DNA from: Dokdonella fugitiva
GTDB lineage: Bacteria; Pseudomonadota; Gammaproteobacteria; Xanthomonadales; Rhodanobacteraceae
Length of the DNA: 64,000 nt
NCBI RefSeq assembly: GCF_014138265.1
Contig: NZ_JACGXL010000007.1
Span: forward strand, 1 to 64,000
Reading direction: 5' to 3'
Position 1 is the stretch's first letter. Every line of letters begins with the position of its first letter. Below are positions 10,578 to 46,799 of this stretch, one piece after another. The translations under genes were made by a program, and so were the position numbers. The notes under the pieces are model-generated. The model had not been told where the DNA came from, searched no databases, and worked only from the letters and a program-made list of their open reading frames with translations.

Positions 10578-10919
10578 TCAGCGCGGTCGGCGCTTGTCGC
10601 CGCGCTCGGGCGCGACCGTGCTGTCGACCACGTCGTAGTGGCGCACGAGCGGTTCCATCTCGAGCAGGTAGTTCTCGTCCTCGGGGTAGTACACCGAGCG
10701 CTCGGGGTTCTCGCCGGCGAACGCGCGCACCGCGTCCATCGAATCCCACAGCGAGATCAGCACGATCTCGCTGTGCTCGCCCTGCAGGCGCCGCAGCACG
10801 GTGACGCCGCGGTTGCCCGGCGTCGCGGCGACGTCCTTGAGCAGGGTCTCGTCGAGATGGGCGATGTAGGCGTCCGCCCGTTCGGCCAGCGTGATGCCCC
10901 GCCAGATGCGCGCGATCAT
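10578..10919 (-). CDS. Antibiotic biosynthesis monooxygenase (ABM) family protein
   Basis: A 113-residue ferredoxin-like-fold protein. MIARIWRGITLAERADAYIAHL opens the domain, and the strand EIVLISLWDSMDAVRAFAG is typical of the ABM/DUF4188-like dimeric alpha-beta barrel family. Such proteins include quinol monooxygenases and heme-degrading enzymes, but most are of unknown role; the Asn/Trp/His set of IsdG-type heme oxygenases is not evident. ATG at 10919 precedes the fold; the longer frame upstream is arginine-rich and unlikely to be coding. Monocistronic, divergent from the membrane protein gene at 11064. Confidence 0.75.
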   Translation of the reverse strand: MIARIWRGITLAERADAYIAHLDETLLKDVAATPGNRGVTVLRRLQGEHSEIVLISLWDSMDAVRAFAGENPERSVYYPEDENYLLEMEPLVRHYDVVDSTVAPERGDKRRPR

Positions 10920-11063
10920 GTGCCGTCTCCGATGACGTCGCCGCCATCTTCGCACGGTCCGGGCGCTTTTCGTGACCGAGCCCGGACGACGACGCTAGCG
11001 ACGTCGGGCGCAACTGCGGCCATAATGCGGTGGCCCGCCCCGCGGGCGCGGTGGAGGATCGGG

Positions 11064-11657
11064 ATGGAATGGCTCGGCTGGGTGGTAGCGGTGCTCGTGG
11101 CCGGTGTCGCGGCATGGCTGTTGCGTGCATTGCGCACCGAACGCGGACGCAGCCACGAGCTCCTGTACGAGAAGATCGACCTCGAGAACGAGCTCGACGC
11201 CGCGCGCAGCAGCGCGCCGTCCGACAGCGCCGCGCACGCCGCCGCCCACGACGCGCTCGTCGCGGTCGCCAATCGCCTCGACGCGCCGCTCGGTTCCGCG
11301 CGCGCGCACCTCGAGGACGTCGACGCGCAGATCGCCGACTACCGCGAGCGCGTGCGCCAGTTCGACGCGGCCGTGCAGTACTGCCTGCAGCCGGTCGAGA
11401 TGATCTTCGGCGCCGACAAGGCGACGCTCGACCAGCTCGTGAGCCACGTCGAGGGCGCGCGCCGCAAGCTGTTCGAAGCGCGCGCAACGCTGCAGAAGAG
11501 TCCGCTGCACCTCGCCAAGGGGCCGCTCGACGGCGGCCTTGGCGAGATCGACGTGCTCGCCGACTACGCGCGCGCGTTGCGCATCCCGCCCGCCGACGTC
11601 GCGCCGGCCCCGGCGCCGGCGCCTGCCGCCGACGAACCCACGCTCGCGTCGTCCTGA
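11064..11657 (+). CDS. Membrane-anchored coiled-coil protein of unknown function
   Basis: A 197-residue protein with one N-terminal membrane segment (MEWLGWVVAVLVAGVAAWLL), then a long helical, probably coiled-coil cytoplasmic region (residues about 25-165, charged heptad-like pattern, e.g. ELLYEKIDLENELDAARS), and an Ala/Pro-rich tail. GTGGAGGATCGGG is a good ribosome-binding site. The topology resembles small inner-membrane scaffold or septum-associated proteins, but I do not recognise the family. Its stop is 4 bp from the start of the SDR gene, so the two form an operon. Confidence 0.75.
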   Translation: MEWLGWVVAVLVAGVAAWLLRALRTERGRSHELLYEKIDLENELDAARSSAPSDSAAHAAAHDALVAVANRLDAPLGSARAHLEDVDAQIADYRERVRQFDAAVQYCLQPVEMIFGADKATLDQLVSHVEGARRKLFEARATLQKSPLHLAKGPLDGGLGEIDVLADYARALRIPPADVAPAPAPAPAADEPTLASS

Positions 11658-41690: not shown

Positions 41691-42326
41691 TCAGGCGGGA
41701 TCCACGACGACACCAGGCAGGAGATGGCCGTCGCGCCACGCGGCCGCGGCGTCGCGCAGTTCGAGCGCCGAGCGCAGTCCGAGCTTGTGCTTGAGTGCCT
41801 CGCGATGCGAATCCACGGTCTTGACCTGCAAGCCGAGTGATCGCGCGATCGCGCTCGGGCCCTCGCCCCAGCCGAGGCGTTCGAAGACTTCCGTCTCGCG
41901 ATCGCTCAGTGGCAGGCGCGGCCTCCGGTGCGAACGGGCCACGGGACAGGCCTGGCAACGTTCCGCGCCGGCCCGTTCCTCCGTGCAGCGCGCTACGTGG
42001 GTGAGTCCGTCCGAAATTTCCGGCCAGGCGACGCGCTCGTTGAAGTAGCCGCACGTGCACTCGCGACCGAACGAGGGTCGCGTGCCGGAATGCGCGCGGT
42101 CGCCGACGATCACGACGCGCGGCACGCGATAGCGCGGGCGATGGAGCGCGCGCAGGGGTTCGACCAGCCGAAGGTCGAGAACGAGCATGTCGGGCTGCAT
42201 TTCTTCGAGTGCGCCGAGTGCGTCCCGCGCCGTTTCCGACACGCCCACCAGCTCGACTCCGCGAAGGCCTTCGACCAGATGGAGGAAGCCGGTCAGCCAG
42301 ATCGGGTTCGTCGAGGCGACGACCAT
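41691..42326 (-). CDS. LuxR/NarL-type response regulator with a cysteine-rich linker
   Basis: A 211-residue protein. N-terminal receiver-like domain with Asp51 in LVLDLRL but degenerate acidic pocket (VASTNPIW replaces the usual DD), and a C-terminal LuxR helix-turn-helix (about 138-200, LSDRETEVFERLG, then VKTVDSHREALKHKLG). Between them five Cys fall in 38 residues (C90, C92, C114, C124, C127), including CTC and CQAC. The spacing suggests a metal or Fe-S binding site. ATG at 42326 follows CAGGAACGCC. It is divergent from the six-gene operon at 42625 and likely controls it; no kinase is adjacent. Confidence 0.75.
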   Translation of the reverse strand: MVVASTNPIWLTGFLHLVEGLRGVELVGVSETARDALGALEEMQPDMLVLDLRLVEPLRALHRPRYRVPRVVIVGDRAHSGTRPSFGRECTCGYFNERVAWPEISDGLTHVARCTEERAGAERCQACPVARSHRRPRLPLSDRETEVFERLGWGEGPSAIARSLGLQVKTVDSHREALKHKLGLRSALELRDAAAAWRDGHLLPGVVVDPA

Positions 42327-42379
42327 CTTTGGCGTTCCTGGAACTCGATCCTGATGCAAATGATTGTGACGCATGCACG

Positions 42380-42500
42380 GCGCCCCCGGGGCTCATCTAC
42401 GATAAAAATAACAGATAAATCAGTATCTTATAGATTATTCGACTATGAATAATTCCATTGTGCACGGGTGATTCTCCTAGGTGATTCACCGATTCCCTAG
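42380..42500. promoter_or_regulatory. AT-rich divergent control region with repeated GGTGATTC
   Basis: The only clearly AT-rich stretch in the window (about 42398-42455) lies between the LuxR-type gene and the GTPase operon. It contains candidate -10 boxes such as TATAGAT. GGTGATTC occurs at 42467 and 42480, 13 bp apart, and the second copy is part of a GGTGA-T-TCACC palindrome; CGATTC follows at 42490. These look like regulator-binding sites. The remaining 120 bases to 42624 carry no gene. Confidence 0.5.
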
Positions 42501-42624: not shown

Positions 42625-43068
42625 ATGAGCATTTCGCCATCGCGGGAGGATGTCCCCCGGGAAGCCTTGCGTGCCTGGCAGCCCGAAGCCGAGCGCTACC
42701 TCGCTGCGCTCCTCGATCGCTCGGACGCCTTGCGCTTCGCCTGCATCGGCACGGCCGACGGACGCGTGCTGGCCAATGCGGCGCGTGCGAATGCGCATTC
42801 GACCGGCGACCGCATCGCGGCGATGACGAGTTCCCTCGTCGCACTGAGCGAGTCGTTCTCGAAGGACGCGCTGCGCAGCCATTGCACGCATTCGGTCGTG
42901 TCGACCGGCCACGGGGCGATCGTCGTCGTGCGCGTTCCCGAGCCTGCGCGCGGTTACGTGCTGTCCGTCGCCTCGGACGGCTCCGAGCTCATGGCGCTCA
43001 CGCTTCGCTCGGCGCTCGATGGCGCGGATCGACTGGCACAGATCATCGGCGGTTTCGCGCCGCGCTGA
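42625..43068 (+). CDS. Roadblock/LC7-like protein, first
   Basis: A 147-residue soluble protein. The core (RYLAALLDRSDALRFACIGT, then RIAAMTSSLVALSESFSKDA, GHGAIVVVRVPEPARGYVLS and a closing helix LRSALDGADRLAQIIGG) has the strand-helix-strand order of roadblock/LC7 proteins, the partner/GAP family of small GTPases such as MglB. First gene of a six-gene operon with a GTPase at 44435. ATG at 42625 after CGAAGG. Assignment is from pattern, so moderate. Confidence 0.68.
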   Translation: MSISPSREDVPREALRAWQPEAERYLAALLDRSDALRFACIGTADGRVLANAARANAHSTGDRIAAMTSSLVALSESFSKDALRSHCTHSVVSTGHGAIVVVRVPEPARGYVLSVASDGSELMALTLRSALDGADRLAQIIGGFAPR

Positions 43069-43134
43069 CGCCGCGCGGGCCACGCGTGTTTCCGCGGGCG
43101 GCGGTACCGCCCACTCAACAGGGGTAGCAGCACC

Positions 43135-43491
43135 ATGGCAAAGATCAGTCTCGAACCACTCCGTTCGCTCGACGGCTACGTCGCCGCCGCGCTCGTCGAC
43201 GCCGACAGCGGCATGCTCCTCGCCGGCGACGGCACGGGCGTCAACCTCGAACTCGCCGCGGCCGGCAATGCCGAGGTCGTGAAGGCCAAGCGCAAGGTGG
43301 CCAACAACCTCAAGCTCAACGACACGATCGAAGACATCCTGATCAGCCTCACCAAGCAGTACCACGTCATCCGCCCGCTCGAGTCGAACCAGAAGCTGTT
43401 CCTGTACGTCGTGCTCGATCGCGCGAAGTCGAACCTGGGCATGGCGCGCCACGAACTGCGCACGTTCGAGAAGTCGCTCGACTTCTCCTGA
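43135..43491 (+). CDS. Roadblock/LC7-like protein, second
   Basis: A 118-residue protein starting MAKISLEPLRSLDGYVAAAL with DADSGMLLAGDGTGVNLELA, NAEVVKAKRKVANNLKLNDT, and IEDILISLTKQYHVIRPLES then LFLYVVLDRAKSNLGMARHE. Same two-layer roadblock-like pattern as the preceding protein but a different sequence, so probably a second partner of the GTPase, or a heterodimer partner. Preceded by AGGGGTAGCAGCACC. 66 bp after the first roadblock gene. Confidence 0.7.
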   Translation: MAKISLEPLRSLDGYVAAALVDADSGMLLAGDGTGVNLELAAAGNAEVVKAKRKVANNLKLNDTIEDILISLTKQYHVIRPLESNQKLFLYVVLDRAKSNLGMARHELRTFEKSLDFS

Positions 43492-43526
43492 CGCCGGGCT
43501 CCGCACACCCGCCGAAGAGATCGCTT

Positions 43527-44438
43527 ATGCCGCTCGAACTTCGCTACGCGGGACTCGACACCGCCATGGAGCAGCGCCTGCGTCTGGCCACGCAGGCGCT
43601 CGCGGCACACCGGTTGCAGGCCCGCGCGGCCGCATGGGACGGCACGCGTTGCGATATCGTCGCAGCCGATCCGCACGATGCCTACGGGCGCCGCGTGATC
43701 GACATCGCGCGGCGCCGCGGTACGCCGGTACTGGAGATCGTCGAAGCCCTCGCGACGGTCGCTCGCCTGACGCGCGCCCTGCACGACCTGCTGTCGCGCG
43801 CAGCGCCTCCGTCGACGCAGAGCACGGCGACGGCGGCGCCGACCACCTCGGCATCGTCGACCCCGGCATCGTCACCGCTGCTGAAGATGGCGACGGATCC
43901 GACGCTGCGGGGCGCCGACGTCGAACTGCGGCGGGACGGCGCCGTGGTCTGGCTGCTCGCCTCCACGAGTCGCGTCGTGTCGGCGAGCGTGAGCGACCGC
44001 CTGCGCGCCTGCGAGCAGCTGGCGTCGAATGCGTGGTCGATCGCCGCGATCGGCGATCGGCAGCGTTCGCGGCCGCCGGGCGAGATCAGCGCCAGCCTCG
44101 ACGCTTTCCTGTTGATGGGTGCATGGTCGGCGCGTGCGCATCTGCCGTCGTATCCCGACGACGATGTCGGCTTGCGCGACTGGCCCGATCTCGGCGCGGC
44201 CGGCACGATCGCCGAGGCCCTGGTCGTCGTGCAATCCCTCCAGCGCTTCCGCGGCACGCCGGAGCGGATCGCCCATCGCCATGGCCTCGCGCGCGCCGAC
44301 GTCGACGCCTGCCTGTGGGCATTCCAGGCGGCTGGCCTGCTCGATCGAAGCGCGACGCCCTCCGCGGTGCCGCCACCCACGCGCCCGGGCGGCCTGTTCT
44401 CGCGTCTCGCGGCGCATTTCGGCTTGCGCGTCGCATGA
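43527..44438 (+). CDS. Uncharacterised 303-residue protein of the GTPase operon
   Basis: Begins with a ~95-residue domain (MPLELRYAGLDTAMEQRLRL, then VIDIARRRGTPVLEIVEALA), a Ser/Thr/Ala/Pro linker (about 92-115) and a second domain of about 170 residues that ends in a winged-helix-like segment (RIAHRHGLARADVDACLWAF, LLDRS) and an Arg-rich C-terminus. No membrane segment. I do not recognise the family. The linker and the C-terminal helical module suggest an adaptor that links the switch to an output. It overlaps the GTPase gene by 4 bp (ATGA). Confidence 0.7.
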   Translation: MPLELRYAGLDTAMEQRLRLATQALAAHRLQARAAAWDGTRCDIVAADPHDAYGRRVIDIARRRGTPVLEIVEALATVARLTRALHDLLSRAAPPSTQSTATAAPTTSASSTPASSPLLKMATDPTLRGADVELRRDGAVVWLLASTSRVVSASVSDRLRACEQLASNAWSIAAIGDRQRSRPPGEISASLDAFLLMGAWSARAHLPSYPDDDVGLRDWPDLGAAGTIAEALVVVQSLQRFRGTPERIAHRHGLARADVDACLWAFQAAGLLDRSATPSAVPPPTRPGGLFSRLAAHFGLRVA

Positions 44439-44989
44439 GCCATCCGATGCCCGATACGGCTTCCGAATCCCTCGTCGCCAAGCTCGTGTTCGCGGGCCCG
44501 GTGGGCGCCGGAAAGACTACCGCGATCCGCAGCGTCACCGACAGCGAGCCGATCAGCACCGAGATGACGCTGAGCGAGCCGGCGATGGGCGAGAAGACCA
44601 CGACGACGGTCGCCCTGGACTTTTCGGCGGCGACGCTCGACGACGGCACGCCGCTGCTCGTCTACGGCTTGCCGGGGCAGGAGCGCTTCGCGCACATGCG
44701 GCCGATCGTGCTCGAAGGCGCCTTCGGCGTCGTGGTGGTGCTCGACGGCAGCGCGATCGACATCGCCGATCAATGCGAACACTGGCTGCGCGAGATCCGT
44801 GCGCATCGCGCCGGCATGCCGATGGTCATCGGCATCACGCATACGGACGCGGTGGCGGAGTTCTCGCTCGGTCCGGTGCGCGCCGCCATCCGGCGTTGCG
44901 GTGCGCCGGTGCCGACGTTCACGTTCGACGCGCGTGATCGCGAGCAGGTGGCTCACCTGGTGCGCGCCTTGCTCGTCACGATGGAGTGA
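44435..44989 (+). CDS. Small Ras-like GTPase (COG2229 type)
   Basis: A 184-residue P-loop protein. Walker A GPVGAGKT (residues 21-28), a switch II segment YGLPGQERF (about 77-85) in which the usual Asp of DxxG is Gly, and a THTD motif (135-138) in place of NKxD. These departures from Ras are typical of the COG2229 GTPases found beside roadblock proteins in other bacteria. It switches between GTP and GDP states; the roadblock proteins are the natural regulators. Overlaps both neighbours by 4 bp. Confidence 0.85.
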   Translation: MSHPMPDTASESLVAKLVFAGPVGAGKTTAIRSVTDSEPISTEMTLSEPAMGEKTTTTVALDFSAATLDDGTPLLVYGLPGQERFAHMRPIVLEGAFGVVVVLDGSAIDIADQCEHWLREIRAHRAGMPMVIGITHTDAVAEFSLGPVRAAIRRCGAPVPTFTFDARDREQVAHLVRALLVTME

Positions 44990-45927
44990 CCCGCGTGGCG
45001 CACGAAGTCGTCGAACGATTGCGCGAGCGCGGCCTTCCGCTCCAGGCGAAACTCATCGAGATGCTCGACGAGCATCCGAGCCATCGCACGGAGCGGCGCG
45101 GCTGCGGCTATACGCAGGCGACGCGCTTCCTCTCGACCTTCGTCAATCGCCCCGCGAGTGCGCAGGATGCGAGCGACCTCGACGTCTTCGCCGACTGGCC
45201 GCTGCGCGAGACCGGCTACCTCGCGGCGATCATGCTCGCATCGGGCTGGCGCCCCGGTTGGCGGCGCGCGGACGCCGCGCCGGCGGACGTGCATGCGGGC
45301 GTGCGCCAGTACGGCGACGTGCTCGACGCGCTGCGTTCGCTCGGGCCGCGTCTGCGCGCCGCGGCGGGTGGGCTCGAGCGCACGGAGAGCCGCTTGTTCG
45401 CGGCGATGCTGCGCCAGGTGATCGAACGGGACGCGACCAGCATCGATGCCGTCGCGCCGATGCCCTGCAAGCCGGAGATCGGCAGCTGCTCGCAGGCGGA
45501 GGAATTCTTCCTCGAACTCGCACACGGGCGCGTGCGCCGCGGCGGCAGTGTCAACGTCGTGGTGGGCCGCGCCGGTATCCCGGTCATGATCGAGAAGATG
45601 AACCTCGGTGAATCGCATTCGGCGATCGTGCTCGAATCGATCGCGCTCGCAGGCGTGGACCTTCCGCCGGGGTCGTTGTGCGCGCTCGCGCACGTTGCCG
45701 GAGCAAGCGGAGCGCCCACCGCGAACGGAATGCGCCTCCCGCTCGACGCGATCGCGTCCGCGCGCTTCCTGCGCCTGACCACGCTCGCGGTAGCGCCGGT
45801 CGACCGCCAACGCGCCTTTTCGGCGCAGTTCGAGGCCCAACTCCGCTCGCGCATGCTGTCACCCGCGAGTACCACGCTCGACGACCTGCGCGCGTTCGCC
45901 CACGGCGAAGCGGCTCGCGCCGCATGA
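44986..45927 (+). CDS. Uncharacterised 313-residue protein of the GTPase operon
   Basis: GTG start overlapping the GTPase stop. An all-alpha N-terminal region (HEVVERLRERGLPLQAKLIE, then RFLSTFVNRPASAQDASDLD), a middle part with several helices and a Cys pair near CKPEIGSCS, and a mixed C-terminal part (GSVNVVVGRAGIPVMIEKMN, then SIALAGVDLPPGSLCALAHV). No membrane helix and no recognised domain. Its place next to the GTPase suggests an effector or regulator. Its stop overlaps the deacetylase start by 4 bp. GTG 44995 is an alternative start. Confidence 0.7.
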   Translation: MTRVAHEVVERLRERGLPLQAKLIEMLDEHPSHRTERRGCGYTQATRFLSTFVNRPASAQDASDLDVFADWPLRETGYLAAIMLASGWRPGWRRADAAPADVHAGVRQYGDVLDALRSLGPRLRAAAGGLERTESRLFAAMLRQVIERDATSIDAVAPMPCKPEIGSCSQAEEFFLELAHGRVRRGGSVNVVVGRAGIPVMIEKMNLGESHSAIVLESIALAGVDLPPGSLCALAHVAGASGAPTANGMRLPLDAIASARFLRLTTLAVAPVDRQRAFSAQFEAQLRSRMLSPASTTLDDLRAFAHGEAARAA

Positions 45928-46799
45928 AGCTGGACGTCTTCTACGACGACGCCTACGCGCCGTCGGACGTGCCGAGCCTCGCGCGGCTCGGTGTCGCCGC
46001 GCGTGCGCTGCAGGACGCCGGCATCGCCGACCTGCACACGCCGCCCCCGTTCGATCCGCGGCTGCTGCGCGGCCTGCATACCGACGCCTACCTGGACGCT
46101 TTCGAGGCGGGACTGGAGCCGCTCGCATCCAGCCAGGGCATCCGCTGGAACGCACGCCTGCGCGATGCGACGTACGCAATGCTCGCGGGCCAGCTCGCCG
46201 CGGCGCGTCACGCGTGGTCGCACGGCCTGGCGATGAACCTCGCGCGGGGTTTCCATCACGCCGTACCGGAACGCGGCTCCGGCTTCTGCGCGCTGAATGG
46301 GCTTGCCTTGCTGGCGCACGTCTGGCCGACCATGAAGGTCTTCGTGATCGACTGCGACGAACACGGCGGCAACGGAACCGAGGAGTTCGCGGCCCGGTTG
46401 CCGAACCTCTACAACGCTTCGATGTTCGGTACCCGCTTCGGCTGTCTCGGCCACGAGCGTTCATGGCCGTACGAAGTCCGCCTGGCCCGTGACGGTCGCC
46501 GCGCGCACCTGCGGGCGCTCGCCGCGATCGAACAGCGGCTCGCGCGCGTCGCGCCGGATCTGGTGGTCTACCAGGCGGGCGCCGACAGCCACGAAAGCGA
46601 TCCGAAGAACCGCAGCGGCTTCAGTGCGAGGGCCCTGGCCGAACGCGATCTGGCGGTGTTCCGCATGGCACGACGGGCCGGCGTGCCGCTGGTGTTCGTG
46701 GTCGCAGGCGGATATCAGCGCGCTGCCGACATCGCTCGCATCAACCTGACGACGGCGCGCTGCGCATTGCGCGTGTTCACGCCCCGCCGTCTCCGCTAG
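45924..46799 (+). CDS. Histone deacetylase family (HDAC-fold) zinc deacetylase
   Basis: A 291-residue enzyme with the arginase-deacetylase fold. General-base His pair HH (111-112) in GFHHAVPERGSGFCALN, zinc ligands Asp145 and His147 in DCDEHGGNGTEEF, Asp221 in AGADSHESDPKN, and VVAGGY near the end. It would remove acetyl groups from lysine side chains, polyamines or small molecules. ATG overlaps the preceding stop (ATGA). Last gene of the GTPase operon; its stop overlaps the convergent gene's stop at 46796 by 4 bp. Confidence 0.88.
   Translation: MKLDVFYDDAYAPSDVPSLARLGVAARALQDAGIADLHTPPPFDPRLLRGLHTDAYLDAFEAGLEPLASSQGIRWNARLRDATYAMLAGQLAAARHAWSHGLAMNLARGFHHAVPERGSGFCALNGLALLAHVWPTMKVFVIDCDEHGGNGTEEFAARLPNLYNASMFGTRFGCLGHERSWPYEVRLARDGRRAHLRALAAIEQRLARVAPDLVVYQAGADSHESDPKNRSGFSARALAERDLAVFRMARRAGVPLVFVVAGGYQRAADIARINLTTARCALRVFTPRRLR

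Follow-up and report, generated by a model that had tools for sequence, protein, structure and literature searches.

A run of six genes in Dokdonella fugitiva raises the question of whether a bacterial roadblock/GTPase switch has been joined to an enzyme of the histone deacetylase (HDAC) fold and, if so, what the combination might do. The run lies in the window analysed here, a stretch of 64,000 nucleotides (nt) forming positions 1 to 64,000 of contig NZ_JACGXL010000007.1 (assembly GCF_014138265.1), where the list of open reading frames (ORFs) and their translations confirm six ORFs on the same (+) strand at 42625–46799, as a first-pass annotation made from the sequence alone had reported. We refer to their products as A to F and cite loci and genomes of the surveys by L and G numbers. 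The joining of a roadblock/GTPase switch (A–D) to an HDAC-fold enzyme (F) and its partner (E), which that annotation had put forward, is real and conserved; of the two proteins that it had left as unknowns, C belongs with A, B and D to a known kind, and the new part is the E–F pair.

Conservation was assessed in 250 genomes of the order, using a threshold of E ≤ 1e-20 for F-like proteins and a score above 420 bits for the F subfamily. F-like matches occur in 44 of these genomes; nine score above 420 bits and the rest at most 158. Protein E and the F subfamily are found in the same nine genomes and are adjacent in 9/9, an overlap with a hypergeometric probability of 1e-16, or 5e-8 when genera are counted (5 of 77), kinship being uncorrected beyond the genus. 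A tenth, weak match to protein E in the order (G226; E value 4e-4 over 65 positions) was counted as chance and excluded, as was one from the family survey (G006; E value 7e-4, one stop). After this exclusion, carriers of E number 11 of 147 genomes in the family survey, 3 of 369 in the class survey (one outside the order), 2 of 349 in the phylum survey (the genome of the window and one relative) and 1 of 3 in the order of the outsider, namely the outsider itself. A lack of co-occurrence beyond this strain was to refute the proposal of the first-pass annotation, and the linkage does recur elsewhere.

A scan of a named genome collection gave 26 loci encoding E; it required two peptide patterns and may therefore miss relatives. 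F lies directly after E in 24 of these loci, the contigs of the other two ending in or just after E, and B is present in all 22 loci whose contig reaches far enough. All six genes, in the order A–F, are present in 12 of the 26, Pseudofulvimonas gallinarii DSM 21944 (L076) among them, and three more (L057, L058 and L080) are cut by contig ends with otherwise the same order; L065, L067 and L075 have B–E–F beside a different C'–D'–A' cassette, and the contigs of L060 and L079 begin in E. The spacing between E and F, with starts chosen by script, is −4 to +20 nt in 21/21 loci measured. Individual loci show departures: in L064/L018, a Pseudolysobacter metagenome-assembled genome, C is absent and D is short, seemingly through decay, although an assembly fault is possible; in L081/L025 (Tahibacter soli) E is split between two frames and seemingly decayed; and L059/L017 has C twice, the extra and diverged gene standing after F (A–B–C–D–E–F–C).

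What, then, is the switch? Judged by motif and profile, A–D fit the already described Group 3 MglA system, with cautions concerning the G3 motif and the matches of B, C and D. Group 3 systems belong to β/γ-proteobacteria. Each has a GTPase of the MglA type, whose G4 motif often lacks the usual lysine and whose G5 motif is DAR, a single MglB protein or a pair of them, and an extra protein with a receiver-like N-terminal part, a variable linker and a winged-helix C-terminal part (Wuichet and Sogaard-Andersen 2014, PMC4316618). D (44435–44989, + strand; 184 residues), assigned as an MglA-type small GTPase, matches the Pfam families ATP_bind_1 (2.4e-12), Roc (8e-9) and Ras (6e-6), and its profile finds MglA chains in the PDB at 1e-10 to 5e-10, although certain Rab chains score a little higher (best 4e-12). 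The motifs GPVGAGKT, YGLPGQ and THTD, recognized at first reading, are all present, together with DAR. T57 and T58 are invariant in 25/25 members and no arginine stands beside the G2 threonine, as in Group 3; D165 and R167 are likewise invariant (25/25), and THTD is without the G4 lysine, which is kept in some relatives. The G3 motif is GLPGQ rather than the GTPGQ of Group 3, its G, P, G and Q being invariant in 25/25 and its second letter variable.

In Group 3 an MglB (roadblock) gene, or a pair of them, also lies no more than four genes away, a place taken here by A and, more weakly, by B. The MglB-like, roadblock/LC7-type protein A (42625–43068, + strand; 147 residues) matches Robl_LC7 at 1.9e-4, just under the Pfam cut-off (21.5 bits against 23), and 12 of 13 members of its family match at E ≤ 0.01 (best 8.7e-7). 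B (43135–43491, + strand; 118 residues), a putative second roadblock-type protein, also falls below the cut-off (5.2e-4; 20.1 bits), only 5 of 28 members of its family match at E ≤ 0.01 and its profile reaches a roadblock chain in the PDB only at 0.014; the B alignment has a mean column identity of 79% over 28 rows. Of the two roadblock-like proteins proposed at the outset, A thus stands, while the assignment of B from its sequence is weak.

The 303-residue protein C (43527–44438, + strand), set down at first as an unknown, fits the receiver-like and winged-helix partner of the Group 3 systems in the excerpts of the survey (PMC4316618) and, since A–D as a whole fit that system, is not new. Its AlphaFold model (predicted local distance difference test, pLDDT, 88; predicted template modelling score, pTM, 0.60) comprises a receiver-like α/β part at ∼1–92, a low-confidence linker at 96–111, a middle α/β part, a winged-helix-like part at ∼229–271 and a C-terminal helix. 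The linker varies among relatives, as in the Group 3 protein, and in profile searches positions 232–283 weakly resemble the winged-helix regions of an ArsR regulator and of a methyltransferase (best 0.013–0.017). In a Foldseek search with the model nothing reached E ≤ 0.001, PTS IIB being the best at 0.025 and the receiver ChxR scoring 0.16, and the modelled likeness to receivers is weak. As for the phospho-acceptor Asp and acidic pair of receivers, C has no fully conserved acceptor and no position is acidic in all 33 members, Asp48 occurring in 13, Asp51 in 22, and Asp or Glu in at least 15 at position 11 and at least 17 at position 12. The winged helix points to gene regulation rather than to the polarity or motility role first suggested, towards which nothing that we found points. 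Residues 290–303 of C form a conserved short helix, which may serve for docking or as a membrane peptide; A295, F298, G299 and L300 hardly vary across 33 members.

Other known systems were considered for the locus and rejected. Actinobacterial conservons (Group 2, CvnA–D) likewise combine a roadblock protein, an MglA-type GTPase and a protein without assigned function in one operon; however, in the excerpts available they have the histidine kinase CvnA and no deacylase, whereas none of the six window proteins has a kinase match in Pfam. The MglA/MglB polarity module of Myxococcus (Group 1) shares the GTPase and roadblock proteins, but its TVPGQ G3 motif and intrinsic G2 arginine are absent from D (GLPGQ, Thr-Thr), and no motility gene is found among the identified neighbours of the operon. 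A known anti-phage defence system was discarded, PADLOC giving no family for any of the six proteins at E ≤ 0.01. What sets the locus apart from Group 3 itself, which it resembles in its MglB-type protein(s), in a GTPase lacking the G4 lysine and carrying DAR, and in its receiver-like/winged-helix protein, is the addition of E–F, the available text of the 2014 survey naming neither a deacylase nor an E-like protein, and the G3 motif.

The association extends beyond the order. G704, from another gammaproteobacterial order, has B–C–D–A–E–F on one contig, and the Acinetobacter wuhouensis plasmid NZ_CP033119.1 (p1_010062), typed as conjugative, carries E–F, a B protein (69.5% identity), a protein annotated as roadblock (A), a weak C-like protein (E value 3e-4) and a GTPase whose gene is cut by the start of the circular record. 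These parts, placed at L115 8986–14636 and L116 1–510, are separated by insertion sequences. This is the only match to E at 1e-5 among 72,556 plasmid records. A gene annotated as encoding an EAL-domain protein lies ∼3.5 kb from the plasmid GTPase gene. Recurrence in other bacteria and on a plasmid suggests a working system. A phage origin is unsupported: the phage records gave no match, and 11 pattern matches in viral contigs included no relative. In a quick tree of 63 GTPases, in which long branches were flagged, 17 of the 18 linked proteins fall in a 28-row group (support 88) together with 11 unlinked ones; the D proteins beside B–E–F in L065, L067 and L075 and the linked D of L114 fall outside it. 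Since the GTPases beside E–F thus come from different D clades while B–E–F is constant, the GTPase neighbour seems, from these sequence comparisons, to have been exchanged while B–E–F stayed.

The constancy of E–F directs attention to the enzyme. F (45924–46799, + strand; 291 residues) is a zinc-dependent deacylase of the HDAC fold, class IV-like, matching Hist_deacetyl in Pfam at 3.1e-32. The full set of zinc ligands claimed for it is borne out: the catalytic residues H111, H112, D143, D145, H147, D221 and Y264 are identical in 26/26 aligned members, and the active-site residues are retained in the most distant members, L114 and L115. Its nearest solved relatives by profile are VcHdaH (9gkv/9gky; 6e-47) and then chrHDAC11-1/A (9rje; 5e-34), and a single-sequence search reaches a chain of liHDAC11/B at 60.7 bits. 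F resembles class IV HDACs (cluster 5) in its catalytic set, in lacking the RPP motif of robust deacetylases and in a bulky residue before the His pair (ARGFHH in the window, SGGYHH in VcHdaH, GGGFHH in HDAC11). It differs in a family motif A-x-G-F-H-H where class IV has Gly, A-R standing in F in place of the Gly or Ser-Gly reported for the class IV foot-pocket motif before HH; in DCD(E/Q)HGG; and in having a partner, E, and a roadblock/GTPase context. The Phe before HH is invariant (26/26), and the second letter is R in most members and C, N or Q in others.

These relationships bear on the substrate. VcHdaH and chrHDAC11-1/A both belong to class IV clade A, whose enzymes show, in the portions of the reports available, little or no activity on the peptides tried, VcHdaH being only a weak de-decanoylase and the other inactive (PMC11532494, PMC13325672). 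Because the nearest characterized relatives of F prefer longer acyl chains or have little peptide activity, the `acetylation' switch of the first-pass annotation is not established; by analogy with them, an acyl group longer than acetyl, or a substrate that is not a peptide, would be as likely as acetyl-lysine. One alternative to a protein substrate is that F, with E, is a small-molecule amidohydrolase acting on an N-acyl metabolite, acyl-polyamine or similar compound, making or destroying a signal sensed by the roadblock/GTPase/C proteins, with no protein deacylated. The inactivity of clade A enzymes on peptides speaks for this, as do the room that the authors of VcHdaH leave, in the available text, for small-molecule substrates and our failure to find in D or C any lysine specific to E/F-linked systems; the winged-helix-like part of C makes a route from metabolite to transcription plausible. 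In five related loci, moreover, the next gene after F, and on its strand, is of the LigB type (aromatic ring-opening dioxygenase family): L061, where it occupies 10640–11656, L062, L063, L066 and L078. Outside those five loci, however, no metabolic gene recurs beside E–F; in a comparison of 27 stretches no neighbour besides the six parts and a LuxR-type gene was common to more than five, and E–F associates with the putative roadblock protein B. We judge this alternative possible but rather unlikely.

Protein E (44986–45927, + strand; 310–313 residues) offers few clues by likeness. The window protein matches no Pfam family, and among 12 members compared with Pfam no family was matched by more than one (best E value 0.028); its profile reaches only 0.29 in the PDB. 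The AlphaFold model, built from 25 sequences, is confident (pLDDT 93.6, pTM 0.91), and Foldseek found nothing for it at E ≤ 0.001 in the PDB (best 1.5) or in BFVD (best 1.0), which is not proof of a new fold, cellular predicted structures lying outside these libraries. Its description as a 313-residue protein of no known kind therefore still applies, and a known enzyme was rejected as its identity, Pfam, the PDB profile, PHROGs and Foldseek all being without a significant match. Conservation is nevertheless extensive: 49 columns are invariant in 25 members, and H30, R34, R35, Q41, R44, C165, E169, R182, E200, K201 and R260 are invariant in 19 diverse members chosen from 27 full-length ones. 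A papain-like Cys–His pair, C165/H208, was dropped as a candidate, H208 being absent in 2 of 25 members and no such fold appearing among the matches listed.

Such enzyme-like invariants could be read as those of an acyltransferase of new fold, with F removing the acyl group that E adds, in a reversible cycle on the roadblock or another protein under GTPase control. E was never found without F in the order survey, and two lysines of B are commoner in its E/F-linked copies (K60, 83% versus 27%; K87, 88% versus 23%). This bias may, however, merely follow relatedness, E matches no acyltransferase in fold or in sequence and its candidate pair is incomplete in those two members, so that we consider a writer and eraser improbable. 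Just as improbable is a bolder version in which E would be the first representative of a new fold. With F it would then act on the fatty-acylation of protein lysines, either as a self-contained writer/eraser or as an eraser gated by GTP, roadblock B aiming the pair; if true, a bacterial Ras-type switch would act through reversible lipid-like marking of a protein.

The reading that we favour, tentatively and a little short of even confidence, is that a Group 3 cassette, A–D, carries in E–F an enzymatic side-arm docked via B and gated by D. From their spacing and their full co-occurrence in the sample we infer that E and F form an obligate two-protein complex. F would hydrolyse an acyl-amide; its substrate would probably be a protein acyl-lysine, perhaps with an acyl group longer than acetyl, and E would be the subunit that holds, activates or aims F. 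The complex would dock to the switch through B; D, or a GTPase related to it, would by its GTP state set where or when F works, and C may pass that state on to DNA.

Several findings weigh against this scheme. Besides the inactivity of clade A enzymes on peptides, five loci (L068, L069, L070, L073 and L081) carry B and E without A, C or D nearby, so that GTPase control is not proven; among them, B is on the other strand in L070, the contig ends after E in L073 and E is split in L081, and the genomes of the five have D matches elsewhere, only a fragment in one. The signalling lysine proposed at first found no counterpart in D or C, neither of which is supported as a substrate of F by an E/F-specific lysine; the bias in B is weak. 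A tree of 46 B proteins speaks partly for the scheme and partly against it. Its two starred clades, of 11 and 6 rows, consist of unlinked B and contain none of the 24 copies linked to E/F, but the remaining 29 rows, 5 of them unlinked, do not form a supported clade. Linkage changes 7 times on this tree, compared with 15.6 times after shuffling; the bootstrap was still unsettled, and the clustering owes something to near-copies. Two of those five unlinked proteins come from genomes with E–F elsewhere (G181 and G187). The genome of the window itself has a second Group 3 cassette, in the order C–D–A–B, without E and F, and of the 83 genomes in the order survey with a match to D, which include all nine E–F genomes, 74 have no E–F. 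This last count would suit E–F as a passenger, a two-gene enzyme unit present in Group 3 operons by chance and unrelated to the switch, yet at least five gene orders preserve the association, as do a genome from a different gammaproteobacterial order and a plasmid, and we regard a mere passenger as very improbable.

Should E–F be a side-arm of the switch as we favour, an obligate enzyme would give Group 3 systems, for which the excerpts of the 2014 survey name no output beyond a predicted DNA-binding protein (PMC4316618), an output that can be measured biochemically, and would place bacterial class IV HDACs in a genetic setting whose other members can be named. E is in its own right a confidently modelled, conserved protein without a match in the structure libraries searched (PDB and BFVD). 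Among the matches listed from open PubMed Central papers, none joins this GTPase/roadblock cassette to a deacetylase, which is not proof that the combination is undescribed.

A and B are separated by 66 nt and B and C by 35 nt; C and D overlap at the ATGA at 44435 and E and F at the ATGA at 45924, whereas D and E overlap (GTGA at 44986) only if the first GTG is taken as the start of E. In aligned relatives E begins at window residue 4 (GTG at 44995, nine bases on), giving a D–E gap of 5 nt, and the start is, from this alignment, likely to be 44995 rather than 44986. There are accordingly at most three 4 nt overlaps and not the four counted originally. Scans for sigma-70 promoters and terminators found none. 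Downstream, a convergent ORF on the minus strand ends at 46796, where the stop codons of this ORF and of F overlap.

Among the neighbours, UPF0093 and PHB-depolymerase-type genes accompany the LigB-type gene in the same five related loci, and, the six parts and the LuxR-type gene apart, no other neighbour is common to more than four of the 27 stretches. Divergent from the operon and beside it is a gene for a LuxR/GerE-type regulator (41691–42374, − strand; GerE 2.5e-9), component 6 of the comparison, which is common to 6 of the 27 stretches, the window included. Relatives with 30–50% identity over 108–243 residues adjoin five other E loci (L056, L059, L069, L073 and L081), with and without C–D nearby, and a dedicated or local regulator of the operon is possible. 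The gap between this gene and A holds a perfect palindrome, GGTGA-T-TCACC, at 42480–42490, with a second GGTGATTC just upstream. The palindrome has no exact copy in seven related stretches from five loci and is present once in the window, where 0.04 copies would be expected.

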